The notes beneath the pieces are model-generated. The model was not told the DNA's origin, did not search any database, and saw nothing but the letters and a program-made list of their open reading frames with translations. DNA of 64,000 nucleotides, taken from the NCBI GenBank assembly GCA_020686985.1, contig JAJEPU010000008.1, positions 1 through 64,000 of the forward strand, given 5' to 3'. This DNA is from Brotaphodocola catenula (GTDB lineage Bacteria > Bacillota > Clostridia > Lachnospirales > Lachnospiraceae). This document shows positions 22,422-57,104 of this stretch, piece after piece; position 1 is the first letter of the stretch, and the number at the start of each line of letters is the position of its first letter. The translations under genes were made by a program, and so were the position numbers.

Positions 22422-22465
22422 GCTTTTATTTTATGATAGGACGCAATTTCCTATGAAATAAAAGC
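22422..22465. repeat. Terminator-linked palindrome, copy 1
   Basis: Core ATAGGA-CGCAATT-TCCTAT with outer arms GCTTTTATTT/AAATAAAAGC. The right arm is the T-tract and last stem bases of the small RNA terminator read on the minus strand. The core arms differ slightly from the other copies. Confidence 0.8.
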
Positions 22466-22583
22466 ACCCTGCTTGCGGGACAGGGTGCTTTCTTCATAGG
22501 AGTTGAGTCGTTGCCTCCACGGGTCGAATGGGGCAATGTTGAAATGTATAGAATATTCACATGTAGTTAGTTGTCGCTAACTG
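22455..22583 (-). ncRNA. Small RNA gene, copy 2 of a near-identical pair
   Basis: Minus-strand promoter TTGACA (22613-22618), 17 bases, TAATAT (22590-22595) with TGC extension. The 5' hairpin is GTTAG/CTAAC, followed by the shared core of about 75 bases. The terminator stem is AAGCACCCTG/CAGGGTGCTT (22462-22490) with the same loop CTTGCGGGA as copy 1. The stem bases differ from copy 1 by paired substitutions, which supports RNA structure. It ends in TTTTATTT, which merges with the palindromic repeat. Ends are estimated. Confidence 0.78.
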
Positions 22584-22799
22584 AGTATTATATTAGCATA
22601 TGCTAACCATATTGTCAATCCTTTTTTCATATTTTTTTCATCTAATTTTATTTACTTGCACAAATCAATTACCCTCCATATTTCCAATCGTTCAAAGTCA
22701 ATGCCCAACGATTTTAAGTCGGGGTAGTTCACAGAGCCAATCCTAATACCTGCCCAGCCTTTGCAAACGGACGATGTAAATAAAACTTGAAAGAGATTC

Positions 22800-22975
22800 C
22801 TAACGCGACGAAGGGCGGGCAAGTATATGCAAACGCGTTCGCATAACTTTGCCCGCCCATAGGAGCGAACTCAAAATATAACTCAGAGTGGATGCGCAGT
22901 AATTCTGATGGGAAGATGTCAGCAAAGCTGACCAGAATTGCGCGCCAAGTCTCCACGAGCGTCGACTTGAATTTT
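22800..22975. repeat. Inverted partial copy of repeat family A plus long palindrome
   Basis: At 22814-22860 GGGCGGGCAAGTATATGC pairs with GCATAACTTTGCCCGCCC. It is followed by TATAACTCAGAGTGGATGCG, then AAGATGTCAGCAAAGCTGACC and AGTCTCCACGAGCGTCGACTT. These are the reverse complement of family A segments found at 12.9-13.0 kb and 49.4 kb, here in a different order. No gene is supported in 22600-23011. Confidence 0.75.
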
Positions 22976-23011
22976 ATCTCTATATCTTATTCACTATAAA
23001 AAAGTCCTCAA

Positions 23012-23509
23012 TCACTCATTCCAATGAAGCCGATGAAGATTCCCCTCCATCGTCATCGCCTCAAACCCATTCTGGCGCAGTGCCTCATAGAGCACAATCG
23101 CCACAGAATTCGCCAAATTCAGAGAGCGGATGTCTCCCCACATCGGAATCCGCACACAGGTCTCCTCATTCTCCACAAGGATTTCCTCAGGAATTCCTGC
23201 ACTCTCCTTTCCAAACATGATGTAACAATCCGGCTCATACCTGACATCGGTGTAGACATGCTTCGCCTTTGTCGTTGCCATATAGATCTTTGCGCCCAGA
23301 TTCTTGTCGAGGAAATCCTGATAATCGCAGTAGACCGTCACATCGAGCTTGTCCCAGTAATCGAGACCCGCACGGCGGATTGCCTTCTCATTGAGCTTAA
23401 ATCCCAGCGGTTCAATCAAATGAAGCCTCGTGTTTGTCGCCACACAGGTACGCCCGATATTTCCCGTATTCAGTGGCATTTCCGGCTCAAACAAAACAAT
23501 GTTCATCAT
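23012..23509 (-). CDS. trmL: tRNA (cytidine/uridine(34)-2'-O)-methyltransferase TrmL
   Basis: A 165-residue SPOUT methylase. It shows the three family motifs: NTGNIGRTC, YIMFGKESAGIPEEIL and RIPMWGDIRSLNLANSVAIVLYE, the last forming the trefoil-knot SAM site. It 2'-O-methylates the wobble base of certain tRNAs. The ATG overlaps the stop of the upstream aminotransferase gene (ATGATGA), with AGGTGA before it, indicating translational coupling. Confidence 0.9.
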   Translation of the reverse strand: MMNIVLFEPEMPLNTGNIGRTCVATNTRLHLIEPLGFKLNEKAIRRAGLDYWDKLDVTVYCDYQDFLDKNLGAKIYMATTKAKHVYTDVRYEPDCYIMFGKESAGIPEEILVENEETCVRIPMWGDIRSLNLANSVAIVLYEALRQNGFEAMTMEGNLHRLHWNE

Positions 23510-24750
23510 TTTGCTTCACCTGCTTTTTCCATGTTCACCACATTTTCCACACTTCCCTCAGCCCCTCTTGGAGCACTCTCACTCTCCGCATCGAGACGCT
23601 TGACAAAACGCTCAATTCTGCTGAGTGCTTCCTTCAGGCTCTTCAATGAGTACGCATAGGAGATTCGCAGAAATCCCTCTCCACACGCACCAAACGCCGT
23701 TCCCGGAACAACTGCCACTTTTTCCTCCTCAAGAAGTCTGAGTGCAAACTCCTCCGAAGTCATGCCGAAACGCTTAATGCTCGGGAAGATGTAAAATGCG
23801 CCGAGAGGCTCAAAACACTCCATTCCCATCTCGCGAAGCGCATGAAGCAGATAACGTCTGCGCTGGTCGTAGGACTCTCTCATATGAGCCACATCCTCAT
23901 CGCTGTTCTTGAGTGCATCGACTGCCGCATACTGGCTTGTCGTAGGTGCACACATGATCGCATACTGGTGAATCTTGAGCATCTGCTTTAAGATAATCTC
24001 CGGTCCGCACGCATATCCAAGTCTCCATCCGGTCATTGCAAATGCCTTCGAGAAACCATTGATCAGGATCGTGCGGTCTCTCATTCCAGGAATCGAGGCG
24101 ATCGTGACATGTGGCTCCTCTCCGTAAGTCAGCTCTCCGTAGATCTCATCAGAGAGCACAAAGAGATCATGCTCCTCCACAATCTCTGCAATCTTCTCAA
24201 GATCCTCGCGGGTCATGATCGCACCGGTTGGATTGTTCGGGAACGGAAGCACCAGAATTTTCGTCTTCGGCGTGATCTTCTCAAGCAATTTCTCCGGAGT
24301 CAGGCGGAACTGATCTTTCTCTTCCAATTCGATAATCACCGGAACTCCATCTGCAAGAACCGCACACGGATCATAGGAGACATAGCTCGGCTGTGGGATC
24401 AGAACCTCATCCCCCGGATTGAGCATCGCACGCATCGCAAGGTCAATCGCCTCACTACCGCCGACCGTCACAATAATCTCAGAGTCCGCATCATAGGAAA
24501 CGTTGTACTTTCTGTGCACATAATTGTGAATCTCCTCACGCAGTTCCTTCAAACCTGCATTGGAGGTATAAAATGTTCTTCCCTTTTCCAGAGAATAGAT
24601 ACCTTCCTCGCGGATGTGCCACGGCGTATCAAAATCCGGCTCGCCCACGCCGAGGGAGATCGCATCTTTCATCTCGCTTACAATGTCAAAGAACTTACGG
24701 ATTCCAGACCACGGAATCGATTCAATCTTGTCAGATAATGGATTTCTCAC
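23506..24750 (-). CDS. PLP-dependent aminotransferase, class I/II
   Basis: A 414-residue fold-type I aminotransferase. The PLP lysine is in NGFSKAFAMTGWRLGYA (near residue 233). The substrate-binding NNPTGA and SDEIYGELTY motifs are present, and the Arg of FLRISYA near the end binds the carboxylate. It is close to PatA/aspartate-type enzymes. The GTG start overlaps the stop of the upstream Lrp-type regulator by 4 bases, so the regulator and enzyme form one unit. The C-terminal 30 residues are a low-complexity tail. Confidence 0.88.
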   Translation of the reverse strand: MRNPLSDKIESIPWSGIRKFFDIVSEMKDAISLGVGEPDFDTPWHIREEGIYSLEKGRTFYTSNAGLKELREEIHNYVHRKYNVSYDADSEIIVTVGGSEAIDLAMRAMLNPGDEVLIPQPSYVSYDPCAVLADGVPVIIELEEKDQFRLTPEKLLEKITPKTKILVLPFPNNPTGAIMTREDLEKIAEIVEEHDLFVLSDEIYGELTYGEEPHVTIASIPGMRDRTILINGFSKAFAMTGWRLGYACGPEIILKQMLKIHQYAIMCAPTTSQYAAVDALKNSDEDVAHMRESYDQRRRYLLHALREMGMECFEPLGAFYIFPSIKRFGMTSEEFALRLLEEEKVAVVPGTAFGACGEGFLRISYAYSLKSLKEALSRIERFVKRLDAESESAPRGAEGSVENVVNMEKAGEAK

Positions 24751-25229
24751 GGTGTAATCAGCATCCTTTCATCCTGGATCTCGTCACAGAGTACCGTTCC
24801 GTGATCCTTGTATTTTTTCAGAACAAAGTGGGTTGCTGTGCTGAGCACAGAATCAAGCGGAGCCAGCTTGTCAGAGACAAACTGTGCAACCTGGCGCATC
24901 GTCTTTCCCTCGATGATGACCATGAAATCAAAGGCTCCCGCCATCAGATACAGGGAATTGACCTCATTGTACTGGTAAATTCTCTCTGCCAGCTTGTCAA
25001 ATCCCATTCCTCTCTGAGGAGTTACCTTGACCTCAATCAGAGCGTTGACCTTTTCCTCGCTGGTATTATCCCAGTTAATCAGAGTATGATATCCGCAGAT
25101 GATATGCTCTTTCTCCATCTCCGCAATCTCGTTCGCCACCGCGACCTCACTCTCACCCAAGAGAATGGCAAGATCATGAATATCAATTCTGCTGTTCTTC
25201 TCAATTACCGCCAGTATCTTTTCTCTCAT
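24747..25229 (-). CDS. Lrp/AsnC-family transcriptional regulator
   Basis: A 160-residue regulator with an N-terminal winged helix-turn-helix (about 1-50) and a RAM ligand-binding domain (VNALIEVKVTPQRGMGFD to the end, with GAFDFMVIIEGKT). GGGAGG precedes the ATG. Its 4-base overlap with the aminotransferase gene suggests that it senses an amino acid handled by that enzyme; this is inference. Confidence 0.88.
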   Translation of the reverse strand: MREKILAVIEKNSRIDIHDLAILLGESEVAVANEIAEMEKEHIICGYHTLINWDNTSEEKVNALIEVKVTPQRGMGFDKLAERIYQYNEVNSLYLMAGAFDFMVIIEGKTMRQVAQFVSDKLAPLDSVLSTATHFVLKKYKDHGTVLCDEIQDERMLITP

Positions 25230-25298
25230 TACGACATTTCCTCCCGTTCCGAATCTTTCTTTATCTGAATTCTTTTTTGAATCCTTCTTTATCTTTAT

Positions 25299-26006
25299 TT
25301 ATCTTTCTTTTCTGAATCCTTTTTTATGCTCTTGATCAGCCATCGATTCCTTCTGATCGTTCGCTTTCCAATCACTGCTCATCCCGAGTGAACTACCCCG
25401 GCTTAAAGAAGTTGGAGCTTCCTGCTTAAAATATCCGGGAAAAATCTTCTCGAGTTCATCCGGCTGTGGGCGCTCAAGAAAACCATGTCCATTCTCCACA
25501 ATCATCTCGCGCGCAATGCCCTTCGTCACACTTCCGATCACCTGAGCCGGGATTCCCTTTTCTCTGAGATTCTCGACTGTCCGACCACCGTTTTTCGACG
25601 ACAGCAACCAACATCCATGACTGTAAAGTCGGTAAGGATTCAACTCCAGACGCTCGCAGATCTCAATCGTGTCCTGACGAACCGGGATTTTTCTCAGAGC
25701 AAATTCCACTCCGGTACCATAGGCTCCGGAGAGACACCAGATCGCAGACAGGATACCGCCCTCGCCTGCGCTCTCCCAGTCTGTCGCTCCGACCTCCGAC
25801 CAGTCGATCTTATCTTGCTCAGGCGAGATCTCCATCTCGCCTGCCTGATCGAGCCATTTCTCCGAAAACCACCCTCTCAGGCGCTCATACTGATCTTTCT
25901 CTTTCACCAGAAGTACACTTCCGGCCAGCCCCGCATATCCCGCCACAACCAGGTCTTGTCCCGGTTTCAAAAGCCCGGTATTCTCTCGCTCAATTTTCCG
26001 CATCAT
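25299..26006 (-). CDS. AIR-synthase-related protein (HypE/PurM C-terminal-like)
   Basis: A 235-residue protein whose middle and C-terminal parts match the C-terminal domain of the PurM/HypE/SelD superfamily: GGILSAIWCLSGAYGTGVEF, then LYSHGCWLLSSKNGGRTVEN, then GIPAQVIGSVTKG. No full ATP-binding N-terminal domain is present, so it is a shortened, stand-alone member with unknown activity. The last 40 residues are a polar tail. GAGGAG lies 9 bases before the start. It is the gene next downstream of the VanW gene. Confidence 0.75.
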   Translation of the reverse strand: MMRKIERENTGLLKPGQDLVVAGYAGLAGSVLLVKEKDQYERLRGWFSEKWLDQAGEMEISPEQDKIDWSEVGATDWESAGEGGILSAIWCLSGAYGTGVEFALRKIPVRQDTIEICERLELNPYRLYSHGCWLLSSKNGGRTVENLREKGIPAQVIGSVTKGIAREMIVENGHGFLERPQPDELEKIFPGYFKQEAPTSLSRGSSLGMSSDWKANDQKESMADQEHKKGFRKER

Positions 26007-26043
26007 ACAAAAATGCTCCTCTCTGATCGAAGTGAACTTTCAT

Positions 26044-27735
26044 TTACTGCGCGGCTTCCACAACAGGAGAGGCAGCAGGTGTCTCAGACTCCGGTGCCGG
26101 CGCTGGTGCTGGTGCTGGTGCTTCGGTATGAGACTCTGTCTGGGCTTCAGTCGGTGCCGGTGCGCTCACGCCCGGTCCGCCATTCTCCCCCTCGACTGCC
26201 GGAGATTTCGTCTCAGGTGCAGTCTCCGCCGAAGTCGTCGTCTCCGCACTCGTGCCTCCACCATTATGAGCGCCAGATGTCTCCGGTGCCGATGTCGGCT
26301 GTTCCGGCGTAGCCGGCTGAGTCGTCGGGGTCGCTGCCTTCGGTCCAACCAGAACGATCGCTTTTGACGCGTTGTAAGTATCCGTGTGGAGAATCGTTCT
26401 CTCCGTCTCGACTCCATCAACCGTCACAACCTTCCAGAGACGAGACTTCAAACCGGTATGTGCAGACTGAACCTGCTTTCTTGTTCCCGGTGCAAGTGAA
26501 TTGTCTACCTTCTCCTTCGGTGCTCCCGGATCGGTCGTACCGAGTGTCTCCGAGATGTACTCCACCTTGCGGTTTGCCGGACGAGTCTCCTTTCCGTAAA
26601 TCGTGAATGTGAGCTTTCGTCCGCTCGTTCCACCCTCGACATAAATCGGAGTGTCATATGGATTTGTGATCTTAATATCCTTGTAGGTTCCCGCGATCGC
26701 CGCATCCATCGACGGCTTTACATAATTGACAATCATAGAGTGATTCTGTCTCTGTGTGATCGTCAGCTCAGCCATCAAAGAGGCATCATAAAGTGTCGTC
26801 GCAATCTGGCAGACACCGCCTCCGACGCTGTCGACAACCTGTCCATTCTCATAAGCTGCAGCTGTGAAGTATCCATTATCGGTTGTAAACGGACTCATGC
26901 ACTCATATCCGGAGAGCGTATCTCCCGGCATCAAAATTTTTCCGTTGATCTTCTTCGCCCCATTTGCAAGATTCTTTGAGCGCGCCTCTCCACTGCTCGA
27001 AAAGTCGGTCGTGCAGGTGCCGAGCACATCTTTGATGCTCTTCAAATCATCTTCCTTGATTCTCGGCTCTTCCTCATTCACCACAGCGCTGACCTTAATT
27101 ACCATACCGTCGGCATCCTCCGCTGGCACTGCCTCTGCGCCTTCCGTCGTCTTATTTTCCCCGCCGATTCCGGAGGCTCCACCTGTCAGCGCCTCATCGA
27201 TCGCCTGACTCGTCGCATCGAGATCAACCACCTTTCCGGAGCTTCCCGGAGTAATCTTAAAGGTTCCGTTCTCACGGACAATCGACGCATCCACCGGCGC
27301 GCCCACAATTCCGGCACACGTTTTCTTAATGAAGGCATCCACCTTCTCCTCATCCACAGATGCCTCGATCTCAATGTGAACCGGATTCTTTTCCAGATCC
27401 TTCGTTCCCATATATCGACGGATCAGATTGCCCTCAAGTGCATGACTCGCAGCCGCCTCAACGACATTCTCATTGCTCCAGGCATATCCCAAATCACGCG
27501 CCGTCGTCTCCACCGTCGTTCCGTCCACATCGAGGGAGATCGTTCTATCCGAAAGCCCGTCCACATAGGTCGCGACTTCCTCCTCCGCCTTCTCCTTTGT
27601 GAGTCCTCCCAGACTGAACTCACCGACATAGATTCCATCCGGTATGGTTTTCTCCTCTGCATACGCCGGCACTGCAGAACTGATTCCTGCAACCGCAATC
27701 AGAGCCATACCACTCAGCAATCTCAATTTTCTCAT
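26044..27735 (-). CDS. VanW-family secreted protein with Pro/Ala/Thr-rich tail
   Basis: A 563-residue protein with a signal peptide (1-26, PAYAEE). A peptidoglycan-binding-4-type region is repeated (about 30-210), and a VanW domain (about 260-390) carries GGGVCQIATTLYDASLMA and NHSMIVNYV. A G5-like stretch follows, then a tail of about 100 residues rich in Pro, Ala, Thr and Glu, including an alternating Ala-Pro run. VanW proteins occur in vancomycin-resistance clusters but also widely as wall-associated proteins of unknown role. No van genes are near. Confidence 0.85.
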   Translation of the reverse strand: MRKLRLLSGMALIAVAGISSAVPAYAEEKTIPDGIYVGEFSLGGLTKEKAEEEVATYVDGLSDRTISLDVDGTTVETTARDLGYAWSNENVVEAAASHALEGNLIRRYMGTKDLEKNPVHIEIEASVDEEKVDAFIKKTCAGIVGAPVDASIVRENGTFKITPGSSGKVVDLDATSQAIDEALTGGASGIGGENKTTEGAEAVPAEDADGMVIKVSAVVNEEEPRIKEDDLKSIKDVLGTCTTDFSSSGEARSKNLANGAKKINGKILMPGDTLSGYECMSPFTTDNGYFTAAAYENGQVVDSVGGGVCQIATTLYDASLMAELTITQRQNHSMIVNYVKPSMDAAIAGTYKDIKITNPYDTPIYVEGGTSGRKLTFTIYGKETRPANRKVEYISETLGTTDPGAPKEKVDNSLAPGTRKQVQSAHTGLKSRLWKVVTVDGVETERTILHTDTYNASKAIVLVGPKAATPTTQPATPEQPTSAPETSGAHNGGGTSAETTTSAETAPETKSPAVEGENGGPGVSAPAPTEAQTESHTEAPAPAPAPAPESETPAASPVVEAAQ

Positions 27736-27755
27736 ATATTCTCTGCTCCTCTTAT

Positions 27756-27881
27756 TTACTGGAACACGCTGACGAGCGTTCCCGCTACCATCGGAACCAC
27801 CATCGCAAGAATCAGGATGATGACAATCACTCCCGATACGATTCTCTTTGTTTTATTCTTATTATTATGTGAGTTTGCCAT
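27756..27881 (-). CDS. Small single-pass membrane protein (41 residues)
   Basis: A short ORF with a basic N terminus (MANSHNNKNKTKR) and one hydrophobic helix (IVSGVIVIILILAMVVPMVA). AGAGAGG lies about 10 bases before the ATG, and the stop is 20 bases before the VanW start. The charge pattern predicts the N terminus inside. The spacing suggests co-transcription with the VanW gene. It matches no family that I recognise. Confidence 0.65.
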   Translation of the reverse strand: MANSHNNKNKTKRIVSGVIVIILILAMVVPMVAGTLVSVFQ

Positions 27882-27942
27882 GATACATGAACCTCTCTTT
27901 CTTTTTCATCTTATTTTTTTCTTGTTCCAAATACACCCGCGC

Positions 27943-28728
27943 TCATTTTTTGACAATCCTGCCGTATTGCAAAATCAACTGATCATGAAGTCTTGAGGCT
28001 TCGCTACGGCTCAATTCTTCAAAGCGCACAGGTAAACTTATTTTATGATATTTTATAAAATACCGCAAGTCTTCTTTTTGCTTTTCCGATGCCGGCTGAT
28101 CCCGTTTTACCTTGTAAATAAGCGGTTTTGGAACAAAAAGCTCCGGCTTGTTCTGCCCGAATTGTCTCGCAATCTTTGTATACAATCTCACCGTGTCCCA
28201 CGCATCCGAGCATGCCCGATGTGCCCGCTCCCGCTCAATCTCAAAAAACGCACAGGCGACAGCTAGGTTTTTCCTCTCCTCCACCGGCATAAATGCCCGG
28301 CAGAGCGCAAGCGTATCAATTCCGTTCCGCTCAAAAGATTCCCCCTGATTTACTGTCGCCCGTTTCAGAAAACGGTAATCAAACATCACCTGATGCCCCA
28401 CAATCGGAAGTTCTCCACAGAATTTCAAAAATTCATCGAGAACCTCCCCGATCAGCGGCGCTTTTTCCACCATCTCATCCGTAATTCCGGTCAGATCGGA
28501 TACAAAATCGGGAATCGGACATCCGGGATTGACTAACTGCTGATACTCTCCCGCGACCTCTCCATTCTCCACGCGAATTGCGCCGATCTCGATAATCCGA
28601 TCTTTCTTTGGATCAAGTCCCGTCGTCTCAAGATCAACCGCCACAAAACTCAACTGTTCTGCCAAATTTCCCTGATCACACTGATCACATTCCCATTTTT
28701 TCTCAGATTTTTCAGATTTCTCAGACAT
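27943..28728 (-). CDS. DnaQ-like 3'-5' exonuclease
   Basis: A 261-residue protein with a DEDD exonuclease domain (about 28-190). Exo I is FVAVDLETTGLDPKKD, exo II VGHQVMFDYRFL, and exo III AHRACSDAWDT. It resembles the proofreading domain of PolC and the stand-alone epsilon-type exonucleases. The C-terminal 70 residues (KQKEDLRYFIKYH) form a separate small domain. The ATG at 28728 overlaps the stop of the dCMP deaminase gene by 8 bases. The frame is also open to 28785, inside that gene. Confidence 0.85.
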   Translation of the reverse strand: MSEKSEKSEKKWECDQCDQGNLAEQLSFVAVDLETTGLDPKKDRIIEIGAIRVENGEVAGEYQQLVNPGCPIPDFVSDLTGITDEMVEKAPLIGEVLDEFLKFCGELPIVGHQVMFDYRFLKRATVNQGESFERNGIDTLALCRAFMPVEERKNLAVACAFFEIERERAHRACSDAWDTVRLYTKIARQFGQNKPELFVPKPLIYKVKRDQPASEKQKEDLRYFIKYHKISLPVRFEELSRSEASRLHDQLILQYGRIVKK

Positions 28729-29221
28729 CGATCTCAATCTTTCTTCCACTGCACTCATACTGGTAATAGCGAACACCCGCTGCATTTAACATGCGCTTTG
28801 ACGCACGGACAGACGGAGAATCCGGATACTTGTCTTCCTTATAGATAATCGTCTGAATTCCTGCCTGAATGATCGCCTTCGCACACTCATTGCACGGGAA
28901 CAGCGTCACATAGAGCTTGCTTCCCTCAAGGCTTCCGCCCCGATAATTCAAAATCGCATTGAGCTCGCTGTGCGTCACATAGAGGTATTTTGCACTGTAC
29001 GGATCTGTCGTCTCCGCCTCTTTTCCCCACGGGAACTCATCATCGGAACAGCCCTTCGGAAATCCATTGTATCCCATCGACATGATTTTGTTATCCTGGC
29101 TGACGATGCAGGCTCCTACCTGCGTGTTCGGATCTTTCGATCGACGACCGGAAAGGTCTGCAACTCCCATAAAATACTCATCCCAGGAAATGTAATCCCG
29201 ACGCTTCTTCGTCTCTGACAT
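28721..29221 (-). CDS. Deoxycytidylate (dCMP) deaminase, ComEB-type
   Basis: A 166-residue zinc deaminase that makes dUMP for thymidylate synthesis. The zinc site is HSELNAI plus PCNECAK. The usual HAE reads HSE here, keeping the catalytic Glu. QVGACIVSQDNKIMSMGYNG is the substrate-binding loop. AAGGAG lies before the ATG. It overlaps the exonuclease gene downstream. Confidence 0.9.
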   Translation of the reverse strand: MSETKKRRDYISWDEYFMGVADLSGRRSKDPNTQVGACIVSQDNKIMSMGYNGFPKGCSDDEFPWGKEAETTDPYSAKYLYVTHSELNAILNYRGGSLEGSKLYVTLFPCNECAKAIIQAGIQTIIYKEDKYPDSPSVRASKRMLNAAGVRYYQYECSGRKIEIDV

Positions 29222-29309
29222 AAAATTCTCCTTTTTCTATTTTTTATCTTTTTTGGTGCACGATTATCTTTCTCAAACTCAAATTATCTCTTATCTGTCT
29301 TTTGTCTCC

Positions 29310-31158: not shown

Positions 31159-31380
31159 TGTTGACTCCTCCTCTTGCCATGATGTAAGTTCCTTTCAGTC
31201 ACAGCACATCCGTCCTCGCCTTCTGAGTACTTTCACTTTCTTTATAAAAAAACTTCACCCAGAAATAAATTTTTGATGCACCGCAGGGAGTATCATGCGA
31301 AACAAATGAGTGTTTGAGTCGACGCTCGCAGAATATTTTTCATGAACGCAATCTTCCATCTTTTATGCTTCTATGAATAA

Positions 31381-31470
31381 AAAAGAATGTGCCCTGGCAC
31401 ATTCTCGCGCCGAGGCGCGGTTGCTTCGGCAACCCTCTTCCCCTGCGCCGAGTGCGCATCCTCGCGGAGC
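31381..31470. repeat. String of short hairpin modules next to palindrome copy 2
   Basis: Five short inverted repeats follow each other: AGAATGTGCCCTGGCACATTCT as first stem-loop, CGCGCCGAGGCGCG, GGTTGCTTCGGCAACC, TGCGCCGAGTGCGCA, CTCGCGGAG. The first and last modules recur beside palindrome copies at 50.7 kb and 57 kb, and the last also inside repeat family A. Confidence 0.7.
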
Positions 31471-31512
31471 GTTTTTGTATGATAGGACGCAATTTCCTAT
31501 CATATCAAAAAG
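31471..31512. repeat. Terminator-linked palindrome, copy 2
   Basis: TATGATAGGA-CGCAATT-TCCTATCATA with outer GTTTTTG and TCAAAAAGC. The right side is the T-tract of the FMN riboswitch terminator. Confidence 0.85.
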
Positions 31513-31541
31513 CCCCAGATTTGCTTGAAATCTGGGGCTTG
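31505..31541 (-). terminator. Riboswitch-controlled terminator upstream of ribU
   Basis: A 13-bp perfect stem AAGCCCCAGATTT/AAATCTGGGGCTT (31510-31540) with loop of 5, followed on the minus strand by TTTTTGAT. It lies about 65 bases after the FMN aptamer. Confidence 0.85.
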
Positions 31542-31603
31542 CTTTCTGAGTGAAGATCTGTCACTTTCTAACTCTCTATATTCTGACATCTATTCGCATA
31601 ATC

Positions 31604-31731
31604 TCTTCTTTCATCCAGACTTTACTGTCGGTTCCGGAATCTCACCGGATCAGCCACTTGCGCAGGTCGCGGACTTCTCTTCTCTCAAAGAGTCACCGCC
31701 GGTGGGGAATCGCACCCCGCCCCGAAGAACT
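31604..31731 (-). promoter_or_regulatory. FMN riboswitch (RFN element)
   Basis: On the minus strand the conserved RFN blocks are seen in order: CTTCGGGGCGGGGTGCGATT, CCCCACCGGCGGTGA, AGTCCGCGACC, CTGATCCGGTGAGATTCCGG, AACCGACAGTAAAGTCTGGA. It is followed by an intrinsic terminator and then ribU, so FMN binding should shut off riboflavin uptake. Confidence 0.95.
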
Positions 31732-31753
31732 TATTTTTTATTTATTTGCTGTC

Positions 31754-39915: not shown

Positions 39916-40017
39916 GAAGATTTTTCAATTTTTATGTCTTTATTTTCTTTTTCATAAAAAATCATCGCCTAAAACGCGCCAAATGTATATTTTTGTTGCA
40001 TATTTTCAAGTGGAGCG

Positions 40018-40056
40018 TTTTTGTATGATAGGACGCAATTTCCTATCATACAAAAA
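40018..40056. repeat. Terminator-linked palindrome, copy 3
   Basis: A perfect 16-bp stem, TTTTTGTATGATAGGA pairing with TCCTATCATACAAAAA, loop CGCAATT. The right arm is the T-tract of the rpsR terminator. Confidence 0.9.
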
Positions 40057-40130: not shown

Positions 40131-40397
40131 TTACTCCATGGTGTACGGCATCAGAGCGATGTGACGTGCTCTCTTGATAGCAACGGTCAGAGCTCTCTGG
40201 TGCTTTGCACAGTTTCCGGTAATTCTTCTCGGAAGAATTTTACCTCTCTCAGAAACGTATCTCTTCAGCTTGTTTGTATCCTTGTAATCGATTACGCCAT
40301 TCTTGTCGCCACAGAATACGCAAACTTTCTTTCTTCTGCGAATGCCGCCTCTTCTAACCTTAGCGCCATCAGCTTTATCAGTCTTATTGAATGCCAT
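40131..40397 (-). CDS. rpsR: 30S ribosomal protein S18, zinc-type
   Basis: An 88-residue ribosomal protein. The core [19 protein letters not shown] and [15 protein letters not shown] is diagnostic. CVFCGD plus NCAKH indicates the zinc-binding form. It is last in the rpsF-ssb-rpsR operon. Confidence 0.97.
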
Positions 40398-43629: not shown

Positions 43630-43655
43630 GTTGTAAATCCCCCTTGTCTTATTAT

Positions 43656-49251: not shown

Positions 49252-49271
49252 CCTCATTTTCTGAGATCTTT

Positions 49272-49442: not shown

Positions 49443-49536
49443 TTGAGACCTTTTAACCCCGTTTTTCTTCCATAACGCTTCCATAAATTAAAAACCCAAA
49501 TTTACTTAAACATAACTTGAACATGAAAGCCATTTG

Positions 49537-49572
49537 AAACACAAGAGCCCGGCAAGCCGGACTCTCGTTTCT
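49537..49572 (-). terminator. Terminator of glcK
   Basis: Stem GAGTCCGGC/GCCGGGCTC with 2-base loop on the minus strand, 16 bases after the stop; the T-tract (TTGTGTTTC) is imperfect. Confidence 0.6.
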
Positions 49573-49587
49573 CATTTTCTTGTATTT

Positions 49588-50535
49588 TTAGTCCAAAACC
49601 AGACGAGCTGCTCCGTAGATTCCAGCATCATTTCCGAGCTTTGCAAGACCAATCACTGCCTTGTTCTCTGAGATCGGAGTGTAATGACGATAATATTTAT
49701 CAATGACATCGATCAGGAACTGACCTGCCTTTGATACACCTCCGCCGATGACAAACATCTGCGGGTCCACAGTCATTGCCAGCTGTGCCAGAACAAGTCC
49801 AAGATAACGTCCAACCGTCTCCACAACCTCAAGCGCCAGATCATCTCCATTCTTTGCCTCATCGAGAACATCTTTTGCGGTCACATCATCGCCAAACTTG
49901 CGCAGAGCAGACGGGGTATCCGTCGCCTTCATCTTTCTGCGCGCCTCTCTCGCAATTCCGGTTGCACTTGCAACCTGCTCAAGACAGCCAACACCACCAC
50001 AGTTGCAGTGCTCCGTCTCCTCATCGCGAACGTGGATATGACCGATCTCACCAGCGAGACCATGCTTACCGGCAATGATCTTCTCATCGATGATCACGCC
50101 ACCGCCGACGCCCGTTCCAAGCGTTACCATGACGATGTCGGTGTATCCCATACCACCGCCCTGCCACATCTCACCGAGCGCTGCCACGTTTGCATCGTTT
50201 CCGCTCTTAACCGGAATTCCGTCAAGAAGATCACTGAGCACCTTCTGCGGATTTAAATCGTGCCATCCAAGATTAACACAAACCTCTACATAGCCATCTG
50301 GCATCACCGGTCCTGGTACTCCCATTCCGGCACCAACGATCTCATCTTTATGGATTTCTTTTTCAATCAGGACACGACGAATGGAATCTGCCACATCCTC
50401 AAGGATGTAACGTCCGCCCTCTTCCTTTCTGGTCGGAACCTCCCACTTGAAAATCAGTGTTCCATCTTTCTCAAACAGTCCCAACTTCACCGAAGTTCCG
50501 CCAATATCGACTCCAATACACTTTTTCTTCTCCAT
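49588..50535 (-). CDS. glcK: ROK-family glucokinase
   Basis: A 315-residue sugar kinase. It has the phosphate loop GVDIGGTSVKLGLF, KSGNDANVAALGE, GTGVGGGVIID, and the ROK zinc signature CNCGGVGCLEQVAS. It phosphorylates glucose for glycolysis. The start at 50535 fits the family length. The ORF is open to 50607 without support. Confidence 0.93.
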   Translation of the reverse strand: MEKKKCIGVDIGGTSVKLGLFEKDGTLIFKWEVPTRKEEGGRYILEDVADSIRRVLIEKEIHKDEIVGAGMGVPGPVMPDGYVEVCVNLGWHDLNPQKVLSDLLDGIPVKSGNDANVAALGEMWQGGGMGYTDIVMVTLGTGVGGGVIIDEKIIAGKHGLAGEIGHIHVRDEETEHCNCGGVGCLEQVASATGIAREARRKMKATDTPSALRKFGDDVTAKDVLDEAKNGDDLALEVVETVGRYLGLVLAQLAMTVDPQMFVIGGGVSKAGQFLIDVIDKYYRHYTPISENKAVIGLAKLGNDAGIYGAARLVLD

Positions 50536-50690
50536 ATCCTTACTCCCTCTCCTTCTCCATTTTTCAGATCCCAAAACAACTCTGTTTTTCTGTAAACCAT
50601 GTGTCAAACATCACAAGTCTTCTCGGCTTGATTATAAAAGAAAGCCACTCTGATTGCAAGTATAAAATCGCATACCCGAACAACTGAAAA

Positions 50691-50719
50691 AAATGTGCCT
50701 TGGCGCATTCTAGCGGAGC
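50691..50719. repeat. Short hairpin module beside palindrome copy 4
   Basis: AAATGTGCCTTGGCGCATT is a stem-loop, followed by CTAGCGGAGC. It is a minimal version of the module string at 31.4 kb. Confidence 0.6.
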
Positions 50720-50761
50720 TTTTTTTATATGATAGGACACAATTTCCTATCATATGAAAAA
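50720..50761. repeat. Terminator-linked palindrome, copy 4
   Basis: TTTTTTTATATGATAGGA, loop CACAATT (one base changed), TCCTATCATATGAAAAA. The right arm is the T-tract of the tkt terminator. Confidence 0.88.
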
Positions 50762-50792
50762 CCGCCCGGACAGAATTTCTCCATCCAGACGG
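50757..50792 (-). terminator. Terminator of tkt
   Basis: A 9-bp stem CCGTCTGGA/TCCGGGCGG, fully paired on the minus strand with two G-U pairs, then TTTTT. Confidence 0.78.
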
Positions 50793-50873
50793 TCTCTCGG
50801 CAAAAACGAATTTTTTAATTTTTCAAACCTTAATGCTTAATTGCCAAATGGTGAATGGTGAACCTTGCGGAAA

Positions 50874-52865
50874 TTAGCCGAGCTTGCGTGCGGTCTCCAC
50901 AACGTTCTCAACCGTGAAGCCAAAGTGCTCAAACAGCTGTTTTGCCGGACCACTTGCTCCGAATCCATTCATCGTCACATAAGCGCCATCAAGACCTACA
51001 TAGCGTCCCCATCCGAAGTCGCTGAGTGCCTCGATTGCAACACGCTTGCGAACTGCCTTCGGAAGAATGGACTCCTTGTACTCCTCGCTCTGCTCCTCGA
51101 ACAGATCCATACACGGCATGGATACGACACGGACTTTCTTGCCCTCTGCGCTCAAAACTTCCTTTGCCTTCACAGCCAGCTCTACCTCAGAACCGGAAGC
51201 CATCAGGATCAGCTCCGGAGTTCCCTCACAGTCATCAAGTACATAAGCACCTTTAAGTGCCTCACGACTGCTTCCTGCCATCGGGGTCAGGTTCTGTCTC
51301 GTCAGAACGAGAGCGGTCGGTGTCGTCTCAGAAGTCACTGCGCTGTACCATGCGGATGCAGTCTCCACGGCATCACATGGACGGAATACATGGAAGTTCG
51401 GCATTGCGCGGAACATCGCAAGCTGCTCGATCGGCTCATGGGTCGGACCATCCTCACCGACACCGATGCTGTCGTGTGTGAATACGAAGGTCAGCGGAGT
51501 CTTCATCAGAGCAGACAGACGTGCCATCGGCTTCGTGTAATCGCTGAATACGAAGAAGGTTGCGACATAGGACTGAAGACCACCGTGAAGCATCATTCCG
51601 TTTCCGATCGCGGTCATTGCAAGCTCACGAACACCGAAGTGCATGTTGCGTCCTGCGCGGTTCTCCTTCGAGAAATCTCCCTCGCCGTTCATATAGGTCT
51701 TGTTCGACGGTGCCAGATCCGCAGATCCGCCCATCAGGTTCGGCATCAGATCTTTCAGGCGATTGATGACCTTTCCAGAAAGGCTACGGGTTGCCTCCGG
51801 CTTCTCAGTCTGTGCCCAGAAGCTCTCATCCTCCCAGAGTGCCTTCTTAACGGCTTCCTTTCCGTCAAAATACTGGTTCCAGAGTGCTTCCATCTCCGGA
51901 TACTCCTCGCAGTATCCAGCAAACATGGCTTTCCACTCTGCCTCAGCCTCAGCCTTTTCTTCACCTGCTCTGCTGAAGTTCTCATAAACTTCCTTCGGTA
52001 CCTCAAACGGCTCCTCACATGGCCACTCGAGGAACTTTCTCAGCTCTGCCACATTCTCCACACCAAGAGGCTCACCGTGAGCGCTTGCCTTGCCCTGCTT
52101 TGCCGGGCATCCGTATCCGATCTGGGTCTTGATCATGATGAAGGACGGTCTGCTCAAATCTGCCTTTGCCTCCTCGATTGCATTTCCGATTGCAGTCAGA
52201 TCATTTCCGTCCTCCACAGTCAGAGTCTGGAAGCCAAATGCCTGCATACGCTCCTGTACATTCTCGGTAAATGCAATATCCGTGCTTCCCTCGATAGAAA
52301 TCTGGTTGGAATCATAGAGTACGATCAATTTTCCAAGTCCGAGTGTTCCTGCGAGTGAAAATGCCTCGGAGGAGATTCCCTCCATCATGCATCCATCTCC
52401 GCCGAGAACAAAGGTGTAGTGATCCACTACCGGATAATTTTCCTTATTGAACACCTCTGCGAGATGTGCCTCTGCAATCGCCATGCCGACTGCCATTCCC
52501 ATACCTGCTCCGAGCGGTCCGGTCGTAGCCTCAACGCCTACAGTATGACCGTACTCCGGATGACCTGCGGTCTTGGAGCCGAGCTGACGAAAATTCATCA
52601 GATCTTCCTTGGAAAGATCTCCGTAGCCAAACAGGTGAAGCAGAGAATACAGCAACATCGAGCCGTGTCCTCCAGAAAGAATGAAGCGGTCGCGGTTTGC
52701 CCACTTCGGGTCTGCCGGATTGTGGTTCATGTGGTTCATCCACAGCTCATAGGCAGTCGGAGCGCATCCAAGCGGAAGTCCCGGGTGACCGGAATTTGCC
52801 TTCTGGATCGCATCTGCTGATAACACACGGATCGCATTAACTGACAACGTATCAATCGTACTCAT
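50874..52865 (-). CDS. tkt: Transketolase
   Basis: A 663-residue full-length transketolase with the thiamine diphosphate motif (GGDGCMMEGISSEAF), NANSGHPGLPLG near the N terminus, THDSIGVGEDGPTHEP, and the pyrimidine domain. It links the pentose phosphate pathway with glycolysis, matching nearby glcK, fbp and ppaC. AAAGGAGGATTACCA precedes the ATG. It follows the DUF5711 gene after only 35 bases. Confidence 0.96.
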   Translation of the reverse strand: MSTIDTLSVNAIRVLSADAIQKANSGHPGLPLGCAPTAYELWMNHMNHNPADPKWANRDRFILSGGHGSMLLYSLLHLFGYGDLSKEDLMNFRQLGSKTAGHPEYGHTVGVEATTGPLGAGMGMAVGMAIAEAHLAEVFNKENYPVVDHYTFVLGGDGCMMEGISSEAFSLAGTLGLGKLIVLYDSNQISIEGSTDIAFTENVQERMQAFGFQTLTVEDGNDLTAIGNAIEEAKADLSRPSFIMIKTQIGYGCPAKQGKASAHGEPLGVENVAELRKFLEWPCEEPFEVPKEVYENFSRAGEEKAEAEAEWKAMFAGYCEEYPEMEALWNQYFDGKEAVKKALWEDESFWAQTEKPEATRSLSGKVINRLKDLMPNLMGGSADLAPSNKTYMNGEGDFSKENRAGRNMHFGVRELAMTAIGNGMMLHGGLQSYVATFFVFSDYTKPMARLSALMKTPLTFVFTHDSIGVGEDGPTHEPIEQLAMFRAMPNFHVFRPCDAVETASAWYSAVTSETTPTALVLTRQNLTPMAGSSREALKGAYVLDDCEGTPELILMASGSEVELAVKAKEVLSAEGKKVRVVSMPCMDLFEEQSEEYKESILPKAVRKRVAIEALSDFGWGRYVGLDGAYVTMNGFGASGPAKQLFEHFGFTVENVVETARKLG

Positions 52866-52900
52866 TGGTAATCCTCCTTTGGGGTGGTTGTGTAATTTTG

Positions 52901-54178
52901 TTACCTTAACTTGATCTCCCGCATCTGTTGCGGTCCGGACACTACAAGAGTGTTCGGAAATCTACCTTTTCGTATCTTTGAAACCGTAAAATCAAATGTG
53001 GCATACAGCTTCTGAACCCCCGCCATATTAAAGATTTCACATGAATTCTCATTATACAGAATAATCAAATCATCGTCAATATCAAGGTGAGTATACTCAT
53101 AGGTAAAATCTTTCGTAAACATATGACTTCCGTCTTTTCGGTAGACCTGAAGACTGCTCGTATATTCTCCCGAAGGATTCTTTAAAATCATCGCCACATA
53201 ATCTTTGTTGTAACAAACGCTCTGAATCTCCGATTCCACTGCGACCTGCGCCACAAGCGCCGGGGACGCGATATTTTCCGTGGAAAAGAACGTCAGCCCC
53301 GTTCCCGAAATTGCACAGGAGTAGGAATTGTTCATGTAGAACACACGCGGGACAATCGTTCCGTCAAACGGATCGTCAAATCCTCCGACAATTCGATCCG
53401 GAACATTTTTTCCGACCTCGGAAAAATCATAAAATACCACGCGGTTTTTCAGCTCGCCGTTCTTGATATACACAACAGAACACATCAGCTGTGTACCGTC
53501 CTCCGAGAGTGCCTCTCCGAGCACATATCCATCTCCCGAAATGATCGTCTTGATTCCTACCTGAAGAGAGCTTCCATCACGGTCATAAAACATGACGTAA
53601 CTCGCAGTAGAATCCTCGACAACCGCCGCAACAATCCCCGTTCCCGAGATCGTCACCTTACTGATCGGAAGCACCGTCGATGCCTCCCCGACTTTTCCGG
53701 TTGAACCGAAAATATAGATCTTGTTTCCCTGCCGGTCTGCAATCGCGACATAGTCGCCCTGCTTTGTGACAATCGGATTCTTCATCTCATAGCTCTCTGT
53801 CCAGACCGTCTTTCCGTGATTGTCCAGATAGGAAGCACCATCCTTTGTGTACTTGAGTACATTATTCCCAAAACTTTCGTATCCGACCAGGCTTCCCTCA
53901 TTCATATCGGTCTGCCACGCCGTCTCATAGCTGACATACTGATAATTTCTCTGGTAATAATAAAGTCCGCCTCCTGCTCCACCTATCACTGCCAGCAAAG
54001 CGACAAGAAGGATCAGCTTGCGCCTTCGCGCTTTCTTGTATGCCTGGACTGCTGTCTCTTCCCCATCCGGGTTAAGTTCCGAACGCAACTCCGGTGGGAT
54101 CGGAGCTCCTGCGGAAATCACTCTCTGTCGCAGTTTTTGTTTCTTGCTTTCTCTGCTCATGGAGCTCATATCACTCAT
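52901..54178 (-). CDS. DUF5711-family membrane-anchored beta-propeller-like protein
   Basis: A 425-residue protein with a cytoplasmic N terminus (about 50 residues), one membrane helix (about 54-74, LILLVALLAVIGGAGGG) and a large extracellular region made of repeated beta strands (VAIADRQGNKIYIFG, SSLQVYRKDGS and similar), consistent with a propeller. The family is known only as DUF5711. It lies between the LysM gene and tkt on the same strand. Confidence 0.82.
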   Translation of the reverse strand: MSDMSSMSRESKKQKLRQRVISAGAPIPPELRSELNPDGEETAVQAYKKARRRKLILLVALLAVIGGAGGGLYYYQRNYQYVSYETAWQTDMNEGSLVGYESFGNNVLKYTKDGASYLDNHGKTVWTESYEMKNPIVTKQGDYVAIADRQGNKIYIFGSTGKVGEASTVLPISKVTISGTGIVAAVVEDSTASYVMFYDRDGSSLQVGIKTIISGDGYVLGEALSEDGTQLMCSVVYIKNGELKNRVVFYDFSEVGKNVPDRIVGGFDDPFDGTIVPRVFYMNNSYSCAISGTGLTFFSTENIASPALVAQVAVESEIQSVCYNKDYVAMILKNPSGEYTSSLQVYRKDGSHMFTKDFTYEYTHLDIDDDLIILYNENSCEIFNMAGVQKLYATFDFTVSKIRKGRFPNTLVVSGPQQMREIKLR

Positions 54179-54448
54179 GATTCCTTATCTCCCAAATATG
54201 ATTCTGTCATATTTTTCCATATAAGATTTTTACTCGGACAGATTCATATCTCTTTTCTCGTATTCATTATTAATTTCTGTTTCCGAAAATGATCTTTGCA
54301 TTTCTCTCTCAGATATAAACTGCCACATCTGCTTCTGTTGATCCAGGCGTGGTACTCTGCAATTTTGATAGATGCACAGATCTTTATGCAAAAGTACATT
54401 TTGAAACACGCTCTAGTATATCTCATTTTGAGATACGGGTCAAAGAGT

Positions 54449-55894
54449 TTACGGATTGATTTCCGGTGGGAGATAAATCTTCTGCCCCACAGAGAGATGA
54501 CTTCCATCTCCAAGCTGATTCCATGCACAGATCGTCTCCAAATTTGCGAGGCTGTGATACCGATCCATGCAGATCCCATACAAAGTCTCTCCGGTCTGCA
54601 CGACATGAGAAATCGCATTCGACGGAATGGACACCTGCTGAACCTGCTGAGATTGTGAACCTGATGAAGCTGACAGGTTCTGCTCACTTGAGTTATTTGA
54701 ACTATTTGAGCTATTTTGTGAACCTGAGAGATCTGAGGAGTCTGGTTCACTTGAGGAACTCGACACACTTGACACACTTGACGCACCTGGAGATTCCACA
54801 GAAAGGCTCAATGACTCTGTCTGCGCTCCATTTGCGCTCTGTCCGCTCCCCTCTGCGCCGTCCATCCCACTCATTCCTGAACGTTCATCGCTTCCTGCAT
54901 TCCCTGACGAACTCAGTGAATTTGACGAATTTGATGAATCTGACGAATTCGCAGAATCGTCTCCCGCATCCCCGAGCTGAATTTCTGCAAGCGTCGGATA
55001 GACTTCCCCCGGCACATGCTCGATCTCAACCTCATCTGCTGTGCCCCCTGCCTGAGAACCGACTGCCTGTCCGGTCTTTGCTCTCAAAATTCTCGTCCAG
55101 TCCCCCGCACTGCCCTCAGGCACCACAGACGCGAGCACTGCCTCCATCTGTTGCATCTTGTGGTAATTGTTCACCATGACGACACCGCCCGCAAGCACGA
55201 CGAGGGAGAGCACCCCACAGGCTGTACCGAGCGTTCCGGTTAGACTCCTGCGTTTTCCCGCCTTCACCTGGTTCTCTTCCATTTTTTTTCGGAAATCACG
55301 GATCACTCCGTCCCTCGTCTGGCTCTCAATCCGCCTTGCGTCTTTTCGAGAAACCATGTAGTCCTGCATCATCTGATTTTTTTCGTAGTAAATGTTGTAT
55401 CCCCGCAATTTATAAAATCCGTCCTCCGAGGCAGTATACACTGCTTCCTCCCCCTCAAGTCCGCTGTTGACATACATCAGCTGATTCTTTCCGGAAAAAT
55501 ACGTCCCATGCTGTTTCCAATAGTTGAGCGGGCTGAGCATCGCTCCGGGAGCACCGCAGAGAAACCATCCAAGGACGATCCGTCTCGGAAACATCTGCTC
55601 CATATCTCGATATGCCTTTTTCCAGAGTTCTTCAGAAAATTCTACTTTTTCTCCTCCGATGGACGCGCCCTCTATCTCGAGTGCCCCATCCACAAACAGA
55701 TAGGGAACACCGTCCTCCTCCCGATTTTCGCCCAGCAAAAGTCCGACCCGCAGATCCTGTCCGCCGGTCGGGTAGAGACGCCTCAAATATGTATTTACAT
55801 AGTCTTCGACATAAAGCTTTAAAACCGGGTCCCGCTCCCCGATCTGCCGGATATTTTTCGGCAACTTCGGGTATGGATTATAACATTCTCCCAT
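54449..55894 (-). CDS. Membrane-spanning LysM protein
   Basis: A 481-residue protein with three parts. Residues 1-215 form a soluble cytoplasmic domain (LRVGLLLGENREEDGVPYLF, DMEQMFPRRIVLGWFLCG) that weakly recalls JAB/MPN-type folds. One membrane helix (about 222-245) follows. The extracellular part has a long Ser/Asn/Gly-rich linker (about 310-425) and a C-terminal LysM domain (HVVQTGETLYGICMDRYHSL). It could link the wall to a cytoplasmic activity. The ribosome binding site is weak (GGTGAG). Confidence 0.8.
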   Translation of the reverse strand: MGECYNPYPKLPKNIRQIGERDPVLKLYVEDYVNTYLRRLYPTGGQDLRVGLLLGENREEDGVPYLFVDGALEIEGASIGGEKVEFSEELWKKAYRDMEQMFPRRIVLGWFLCGAPGAMLSPLNYWKQHGTYFSGKNQLMYVNSGLEGEEAVYTASEDGFYKLRGYNIYYEKNQMMQDYMVSRKDARRIESQTRDGVIRDFRKKMEENQVKAGKRRSLTGTLGTACGVLSLVVLAGGVVMVNNYHKMQQMEAVLASVVPEGSAGDWTRILRAKTGQAVGSQAGGTADEVEIEHVPGEVYPTLAEIQLGDAGDDSANSSDSSNSSNSLSSSGNAGSDERSGMSGMDGAEGSGQSANGAQTESLSLSVESPGASSVSSVSSSSSEPDSSDLSGSQNSSNSSNNSSEQNLSASSGSQSQQVQQVSIPSNAISHVVQTGETLYGICMDRYHSLANLETICAWNQLGDGSHLSVGQKIYLPPEINP

Positions 55895-56173
55895 AATCTA
55901 ATCTCACCATCCTGCCATTTCTTTCTCCGTGAGTGCGTCCCAGATGTTCCAGAAATGCCACTGAGTCAGACACCAAATGCTCTGTCTTGCGCATCTCTCG
56001 CCTGTCCGTCCTGTCGCATAATAACCGGCAGATAACCGAAAAAAACATTTCTTTTTAGGTTGGCACACACTCTGACAACCGAACAGGCTGCAAAGAAGTT
56101 ACAAGGTTATAACCTTAGCCTGTCCAGATGTCTGATCACAGCAGAGTATATCACGGGAAAAGCAAAGAATTTG

Positions 56174-56935
56174 TCAAATCCAGGTACGATTTTCGAGGAA
56201 CTGTTCGACAAGAAATGCCGATTCACAGATGTAATCTGCCATCTGCATAACGAGTGAAAGTCGAACGCTCTGGAGCATCAGCGGATCGCGATTTCCATAT
56301 CCACCCACAATGCCCGTTAGAAAAATATCCCCGACCGCCTGTAATTCCTTCGCCACTCCAAGTCCCGGTCGGAGTGAGCCACGCCCGAGTGTCACACAGC
56401 CGACATGCTCCATGCTCCCGACGGAGGCATCCACAGCAACGATCACACTGCGTGGATAACGTTGGTGAATCATCCGGACATATTGTTCGAGATTCATCGC
56501 ATGAACAGGGCGCTCGAGCGTTCCGACAACCTGAAGTCTTCGCACATTTCCCGATGACAATTTGTAACCGATCAGAGGTCCGAGACTGTCCCCGGTCGAG
56601 CGATCCGTCCCTATGCACAAAAAGACAACTCCATTTCGTTCCCTCGTGCTCAGAAGCTCCCCAATCATCGCGCACATCAGCCCTGCACAGTAGCGGACAT
56701 CTCCCCTCTGTCGCGAGTCAAAATAATAAATCCCATATCGGTTTCCGTTTTTTCGTTCTGCCTGCTGTACTTGCTCCATCTGTGCTTTTATCTGTGTTTT
56801 TATTGGCGCTTTCATTGGCGTTTTTACCTGTGTTTCTACCGCCGTTTCTACCTGTGTTCTGATTTGAGGAGTGATTCGCATTATTTTCCCCTGTTCCTCT
56901 ATTTTCATTTCTGATTTTCTCTTCAATAATTTCAT
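56174..56935 (-). CDS. yyaC: Spore protein YyaC (DUF1256)
   Basis: A 253-residue protein. Residues from about 70 onward match YyaC, a germination-protease-like spore protein: FLCIGTDRSTGDSLGPLIGY, VVGTLERPVHAMNL, VAVDASVGSMEHVGCVTL, GVGGR-type glycine loops and FLTGIVGGYGN. The first 65 residues are unusual, made of a 4-residue repeat (Lys-Thr/Ala-Pro/Gln-Met/Ile) coded by a 12-base tandem repeat. The start is uncertain: 56938, 56935, or 56881, which has AGGGGAAAATA upstream. Confidence 0.82.
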   Translation of the reverse strand: MKLLKRKSEMKIEEQGKIMRITPQIRTQVETAVETQVKTPMKAPIKTQIKAQMEQVQQAERKNGNRYGIYYFDSRQRGDVRYCAGLMCAMIGELLSTRERNGVVFLCIGTDRSTGDSLGPLIGYKLSSGNVRRLQVVGTLERPVHAMNLEQYVRMIHQRYPRSVIVAVDASVGSMEHVGCVTLGRGSLRPGLGVAKELQAVGDIFLTGIVGGYGNRDPLMLQSVRLSLVMQMADYICESAFLVEQFLENRTWI

Positions 56936-56961
56936 CATTTTCCGCCTGTGCCATTTTTTGT

Positions 56962-56967
56962 TAGTAT
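56962..56967 (-). promoter_or_regulatory. Possible -10 box upstream of yyaC
   Basis: TATACT(A) on the minus strand about 25 bases before the first start codon. No clear TTGACA precedes it, so a sporulation sigma factor is possible but unproven. Confidence 0.35.
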
Positions 56968-57009
56968 AGACGGAAAATTCGAAAATTATGTATGGATGAG
57001 TATTGAAGG

Positions 57010-57058
57010 TATGAGTGAAAAAGAATGTGCCGAGTGCGCTTCTTCGTTCCACTGCGGA
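57010..57058. repeat. Hairpin module beside palindrome copy 5
   Basis: AGAATGTGCCGAGTGCGCTTCT is a partial stem-loop, followed by TCGTTCCACTGCGGAGC. The CGTTCCACTGCGG phrase is otherwise found in repeat family A, so this copy joins both families. Confidence 0.6.
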
Positions 57059-57104
57059 GCATTTTTTATTTCATAGGGCACAATTTCCTGTCATATAAAA
57101 ATGC
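57059..57104. repeat. Terminator-linked palindrome, copy 5 (diverged)
   Basis: GCATTTTTTATTTCATAGG, loop region GCACAATTT, CCTGTCATATAAAAATGC. The outer GCATTTTT/AAAAATGC pairing is specific to this copy and matches its neighbouring terminator. Confidence 0.78.

Follow-up and report, generated by a model that had tools for sequence, protein, structure and literature searches.

bcr1, a repeat of the Bacillus cereus group, shows the characteristics of a mobile element in a Firmicute. Here we describe a family of small repeats from Lachnospiraceae that is like it in this respect, the likeness being one of description and not of sequence. The family was noticed in a 64,000-nucleotide stretch of Brotaphodocola catenula DNA (assembly GCA_020686985.1, contig JAJEPU010000008.1, positions 1 to 64,000; hereafter the window), where a sequence-only reading had pointed out five copies of a palindrome joined to intrinsic terminators. 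What that reading missed is a larger modular element, of which the palindrome forms the end.

Three described systems can be compared with this element. Group IIC introns insert at or just after terminators, according to two papers (PMC4424553, PMC8919778). Like these introns, the element is found directly behind intrinsic terminators (185 of 236 copies), and both occur at one site in locus L289. It differs from them in being about 130 bp long, in having neither an open reading frame (ORF) nor a match to intron domain V, and in being abundant in a genome where neither intron nor reverse transcriptase was detected.

REP and BIME sequences resemble the element in their short palindromes, many intergenic copies (52 sites in the B. 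catenula genome, G000), genome-specific families, composite arrays and complementary stem changes. Unlike them, the element stands directly behind terminators in one orientation, and its tandem units may differ too, being mostly head to tail where observed. It also lacks the GT(A/G)G head: a T-tract and one base precede its core palindrome, and GGAG occurs upstream, inside the small hairpin P4. Moreover, no rayt gene flanked by element copies was seen at the 34 loci with a Y1 transposase gene. Because both the head motif and the flanked rayt gene failed, the element is not filed as a REP.

The SPRITE, BOX and RUP repeats of Streptococcus pneumoniae are MITE-like (resembling miniature inverted-repeat transposable elements). 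They are like the element in being small structured repeats, one of them terminator-like, which are bunched and insert into one another (PMC10969869). They differ in host, and the source passages describe no insertion at terminators; here, too, the distinction is drawn by description and not by sequence.

No Rfam family matched the element, whereas the neighbouring flavin mononucleotide (FMN) riboswitch and T-box sequences were matched. The sole Rfam match touching it, to NsiR1, lies below the gathering score and reaches the edge of one copy. No description of the element was found in searches confined to open-access literature, and six 15-mers from the core were absent from the open-access texts searched.

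The element probably represents a non-autonomous, REP/BIME-like mobile element family of Lachnospiraceae that uses terminators as attachment sites. Among the roles that the sequence-only reading had offered, a mobile element targeting terminators is the best supported, by the 185 of 236 copies behind terminators, by occupancy that differs between species, and by copies at attenuators and behind the element's own terminator-like hairpin.

Architecture and covariation

Read along the plus strand, the unit consists of an A-tract, a hairpin called P1, a branched module, P4, a T-tract and the core palindrome, followed by the A-tract and terminator of the host. In the oriented copies, of which a part was read by eye, the 27-bp palindrome is the terminator-proximal (right) end of this composite unit. 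P1 is a 10-bp hairpin (for example AGAATGTGCC/GGCACATTCT) which, together with the A-tract, resembles an intrinsic terminator on the opposite strand. The branched module contains a TTCC stretch in most copies. P4 has a GGA loop and is found in the versions CGC-GGA-GCG, AGC-GGA-GCT, TGC-GGA-GCA and CCC-GGA-GGG. In other genomes the stem sequences differ and the architecture is kept. Among 80 accepted P1 stems, 61 are perfect and 18 distinct sequences occur; stems with fewer than 8 of 10 pairs were not accepted, so the perfect fraction is biased upward. No inverted repeat joining the two ends of the element is apparent in alignment A1.

Within the window, the core with up to three mismatches gives four matches, against none in 100 shuffles. 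All five palindromes are present, as had been claimed; the identical 10-bp stem and CGCAATT loop ascribed to them are not shared by all. Exact stems are found at 31478, 40024 and 50728, the last with the loop CACAATT. Copies 1 and 5 differ: the core at 22432 has two mismatches, with TCCTATGAAA as its right arm, and the core at 57069 is degenerate (TTTCATAGGGCACAATTTCCTGTCATA). The shared orientation held for all five. So did the minus-strand terminators, for which folding predicts strong hairpins of -20.9 to -29.2 kcal/mol in each right-hand host flank. The names given to the neighbours fared unevenly. Pfam and Rfam support rpsR, tkt and the FMN riboswitch, whereas Rfam gives no match up to E 2 for the putative small RNA at copy 1, and Pfam gives none for the ORF at 57225-58343. 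Copy 2, the only full-length element of the window, has the FMN riboswitch terminator on one side and an ECF transporter gene on the other (Table 1).

Table 1. Element copies in the window and the host features beside them; the strand given for a copy is the sense of its host terminator
Feature	Position	Strand	Basis
Copy 1, core-only; arms run on into an inverted copy, 10 nt long, of the tail of the host terminator (GCTTTTATTT / AAATAAAAGC)	22422..22465	-	sequence, folding
Host terminator hairpin ahead of copy 1	22464..22488	-	folding
Copy 2, full length: A-tract, P1, branched module, P4, T-tract, core palindrome	31379..31504	-	sequence; alignment A1
P1 of copy 2: perfect 10-bp hairpin AGAATGTGCC/GGCACATTCT, then T6 on the minus strand (terminator-like)	31384..31405	-	sequence
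P4 of copy 2: small hairpin CGC-GGA-GCG preceding the T-tract	31463..31471	+	covariation, helix 1: double changes in 2/3 pairs
Core palindrome of copy 2: TATGATAGGA CGCAATT TCCTATCATA	31478..31504	.	sequence pattern
FMN riboswitch terminator hairpin, host target of copy 2	31512..31538	-	Rfam, folding
FMN riboswitch aptamer	31599-31733		Rfam
Copy 3, truncated to a P4 remnant, T-tract and core; follows the rpsR terminator	40010..40050	-	sequence
rpsR, owner of the terminator targeted by copy 3	40131..40397	-	Pfam PF01084
Copy 4, a short form in which P4 is fused to a P1-like hairpin, with T-tract and core; follows the tkt terminator	50687..50754	-	sequence
tkt (transketolase), owner of the terminator targeted by copy 4	50874..52865	-	Pfam search
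Copy 5, short and degenerate; follows the terminator of the ORF at 57225-58343	57018..57095	-	sequence, folding; covariance model match 57045-57102

The stems of the element covary. The four arm pairs next to the inner stem (pairs 1-4) were scored in 143 copies outside the B. catenula genome: of 141-142 cases per pair, 122-128 are Watson-Crick, where shuffling gives means of 50-91. When 41 full-length copies were chosen and aligned, both sides of a pair had changed in 64 cells, compared with 16.8 after shuffling (0/500 shuffles). These double changes occur in five core-helix pairs and two P4 pairs, and in the pairing of T-tract with A-tract they affect one of five pairs, in a single cell. Sliding the pair partners brings the covariation score down from 0.264 to 0.077 at most. 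The simplest compensatory change, from TATG/CATA to TATC/GATA, is seen between species of the genus. The invariance of the inner stem is partly an artefact, since this stem was fixed in the search pattern; ACAGGA/TCCTGT takes its place in copies of G011 and G018 and in one of G019.

Wobble pairs are symmetric, with 25 G-T and 25 A-C among 236 copies. Such symmetry does not point to selection on an RNA strand and is what a DNA hairpin, or plain decay, would be expected to give; a constraint at the level of RNA was rejected on these equal counts.

The covarying changes distinguish lineages and lie at the arm positions adjoining the inner stem. The sequence-only reading had placed covariation elsewhere, proposing that the outer arms follow each local terminator tail. 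When 234 copies are pooled by arm type, an excess of pairs does appear at positions 6-10 (950 against 927.6, 0/500 shuffles) and at position 5 (127 against 99.2, 0/500), with 409 against 392.9 at positions 11-16 (58/500). Within 13 subfamily clusters holding 84 copies, after clusters of fewer than three copies and copies with less than 62 nt of left flank were dropped, positions 6-10 (T-tract against A-tract) give 352 pairs where 352.8 are expected, and position 5 retains a slight excess (42 against 35.5, 4/1000 shuffles). Since the pooled signal at positions 6-10 vanishes inside the clusters, covariation of arm and tail was rejected. The two tracts pair through composition, no better than in shuffled sequence. 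The quoted complementarity itself exists. In copies 3 and 5 it is mostly that of the element's T-tract and the host A-tract, and it is locus-specific in copy 1 only, where a 10-nt inverted copy of the terminator tail forms an exception to pairing by composition. The far arm of copy 1 (22422-22465) looks as if it had been copied by template switching from that tail.

Position behind terminators

The adjacency and orientation seen in the window hold across genomes. By a fixed rule, 185 of 236 copies directly follow an intrinsic terminator that has the same sense. The rule accepts 3 of 236 shuffled flanks, 4 of 213 far-left flanks and 49 of 3000 random positions. The set was not curated by hand: it comprises those of 238 copies with a recognisable core that had enough flank, and includes at least one site counted on both strands (L052/L178) and at least one chance match (L132). 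In the B. catenula genome the figure is 37 of 43 copies. For the 214 copies with enough flank to look for a coding context, an ORF ends within 220 nt on the terminator strand in 139, an opposite frame is present in 28, and none in 47.

Some units stand behind other units. In L046, L060, L111, L171 and L303 they are arranged head to tail, with the core of one behind the P1 T-tract of its neighbour. In L322 (897-1058, G019) two elements face each other across a single terminator, as expected if a bidirectional terminator were used from both strands.

Other copies are found at attenuators. One lies behind the FMN riboswitch matched by Rfam, before the ECF transporter gene, and the copy in L056 lies behind a T-box that Rfam also matches; T-boxes at L016, L157 and L181 were read by eye ahead of element copies. 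We take the genes downstream to be pheS (L056), thrS (L016, L181) and valS (L157). In L016 and L181, which come from two different genomes, the element is thus between a T-box-like terminator and a thrS-like gene.

Occupancy of orthologous terminators differs between species. Up to 230 nt past the stop codon, read by eye, rpsR is followed by a core in L213, L220 and L223 and by a partial one in L214; none was seen in the remaining 19 of the 23 loci. For tkt (L236-L254) a core is present in 3 of 19 loci, namely L236, L242 and L243. Past the terminators the flanks of different species do not align, and the comparison of orthologous terminators therefore yields occupancy and not a clean empty site.

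On the mobile-element reading, the hairpin unit of about 130 bp would always insert the same way round, at the 3' edge of a host terminator and immediately past its T-tract. Host transcripts would normally stop earlier, and the cost of insertion would therefore be low. The core palindrome would form the terminator-proximal end and P1, a terminator-like hairpin with its T-tract, the distal end. Because P1 is terminator-like, the element would carry a copy of its own target and could form tandem arrays. It appears to spread through gut Lachnospiraceae, and would do so by transposition in trans. Its conserved hairpins are perhaps recognised by the mobilising enzyme, maybe as single-stranded DNA, because strand-specific wobble is absent.

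Alternatively, the unit may be a module maintained by the host, serving as a backup terminator or as a binding site for a protein, and so shape the ends of transcripts or prevent read-through. In that case P1 would be a second terminator, and the core and P4 would be protected hairpins. The fixed orientation relative to the terminator, the terminator-like P1 and T-tract on the same strand, and the preservation of structure while sequence changes would all fit such a module. We consider it unlikely, given the sporadic occupancy at orthologous terminators (3-4 of 23 for rpsR, 3 of 19 for tkt), the equal counts of G-T and A-C pairs, and the truncated and core-only copies in the B. catenula genome. 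A backup terminator should also harm expression where it stands between a T-box or riboswitch terminator and a synthetase-like or transporter gene. At such sites P1 looks intact in L018, L016 and L056, and is imperfect in L157 and in the thrS copy of L181.

Copy number and host range

The B. catenula genome contains 38 cores with up to three mismatches, against none for the reversed control. Its 52 sites comprise 48 found by a covariance model of the right part, obtained from 78 rows after removal of 30 opposite-strand echoes with 150 of 2116 first-look candidates scored, and four found by pattern only. At least 20 of 23 relatives in the same genus have matches, as do at least 52 of 116 genomes, that of B. 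catenula included. The counts for relatives are lower bounds, since filters were stricter and at most 48 candidates were scored per genome.

In a class-wide sample, 16 of 291 genomes, again including B. catenula, match at E up to 1e-6. Scores above 46 bits occur in its own family only, and the best outside it is 45.8 bits. Two genomes from other families of the same order, G104 and G107, have 17 and 41 weaker model matches, which may represent a distant relative or chance palindromes in AT-rich DNA.

A relaxed pattern finds at least 117 stretches in named genomes; among the carriers are Clostridium fessum, Hungatella effluvii and numerous Lachnospiraceae assemblies. At least five of the stretches listed look like chance matches (Chryseobacterium, Flavobacterium, a gammaproteobacterium, Marinoscillum and Ornithinibacillus). 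The exact core of the species has no match in the named genomes, viral contigs have none to one strict pattern, and plasmids have none with one element as query. Twenty unannotated faecal records labelled 'Bacteriophage sp.' (H1-H20) match the element, four of them over at least 80% of the query. Their element-like stretches mostly lack P1, and may reflect either carriage by phages or contamination with bacterial DNA.

Copies within a genome can be much alike. Counting the part of each genome's copies that lies in fetched regions, the median identity is 0.939 in G007 (16 copies) and 0.920 in G009 (8 copies), and lower in G011 (0.814, 6 copies) and G019 (0.778, 6 copies).

Candidate movers

Several observations weigh against a mobile element. 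Fifty-one of the 236 copies failed the terminator test; many of these show a T-run but an imperfect stem or none, and some lie behind other repeats. No consistent target-site duplication was seen among flanking bases compared by eye. No strain-level empty site was seen, and because the flanks between species do not align, we infer the insertion events. The copies within G011 and within G019 show limited uniformity. No autonomous copy was found in the retrieved loci, where 9 of 166 left modules have no adjacent right module, none has a distant one, and no gene lies between the two modules of an element. Searches for Y1, reverse transcriptase, group II intron and IS110 sequences gave no candidate enzyme that co-occurs with the element. 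Finally, copy number and position could also reflect selection instead of targeting.

Genome G009, which is 99% complete and has 39 matches to the element model, is informative about possible movers. It has no match for reverse transcriptase, group II domain V or IS110, and its single Y1 gene has an internal stop. G007, 83% complete, has no Y1, reverse transcriptase or IS110 match and two matches to group II domain V. Reverse transcriptase is likewise without a match in G001, G002 and G004, domain V in G001 and G002, and IS110 transposase in G019 and G002. Y1 genes are found in 17 of 24 genomes of the genus; G004 and G018 have element copies and no Y1 match. Y1 transposase, reverse transcriptase and IS110 were therefore rejected as required movers, as element-bearing genomes exist without an intact match. 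Given the incompleteness and domain V matches of G007, and copies about 8% divergent in G009, the enzyme may since have been lost.

The element might instead be a retroelement related to group IIC introns, or mobilised in trans by them. Both share a target behind terminators in the same sense, as described in the intron papers (PMC4424553, PMC8919778). In L289 (1314-1510, G011) a group II intron with a reverse transcriptase ends where an element core begins, a shared site, and in L292 a group II intron starts behind a terminator-like hairpin. This origin is nevertheless quite unlikely, since G009, G001 and G002 lack both reverse transcriptase and domain V matches, no Rfam group II family matched the element (five element loci, E up to 5), and the ends of the element do not resemble the intron consensus.

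A second small structured repeat family also occurs directly behind terminator T-tracts (ATGCACAGGCC...GAGTAGGGGAAGA..TCTTCCCCTACTCGAT). It is found at L047, L063, L163, L055, L235 and L234 (G013, G019 and one named record), at some of these loci directly ahead of an element core. It ends in CCTACTCGAT, like the intron of L289, which lends the group IIC link some support; given this match of 3' ends, the family may be a gutted group IIC intron.

A REP- or PATE-type element mobilised by an IS200/IS605 or RAYT (Y1) transposase is very unlikely: the covarying palindromes, arrays and genome-specific families do resemble REPs and BIMEs as PMC2817692 presents them, and Y1 genes are common in the genus, but G007, G004 and G018 carry copies without a Y1 match, the Y1 gene of G009 is interrupted by a stop, the GT(A/G)G head is not next to the palindrome, and the element is near only 2 of 34 Y1 loci (L262, L281), on one side each and never on both. 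At L262 (1440-2205, G001) an IS200-type transposase gene has a terminator-like hairpin on one side and an element core on the other, and appears to have entered the outer arm of the element. A transposition system that attaches at terminators and whose mover lies outside the HUH-Y1, group II reverse transcriptase and IS110 families is possible, if doubtful.

If the mobile-element reading is true, a tiny multi-hairpin element with a terminator-like hairpin of its own uses the terminator itself as its attachment site, and the element defines a hunt for the missing mobilising enzyme. It places hairpins inside T-box and riboswitch leaders. In compact genomes terminators are safe harbours, and the element family that we found documented as using them is that of the group IIC introns. 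A second, minute element family at this site, in gut bacteria, would point to terminators as a niche of general use to mobile DNA.

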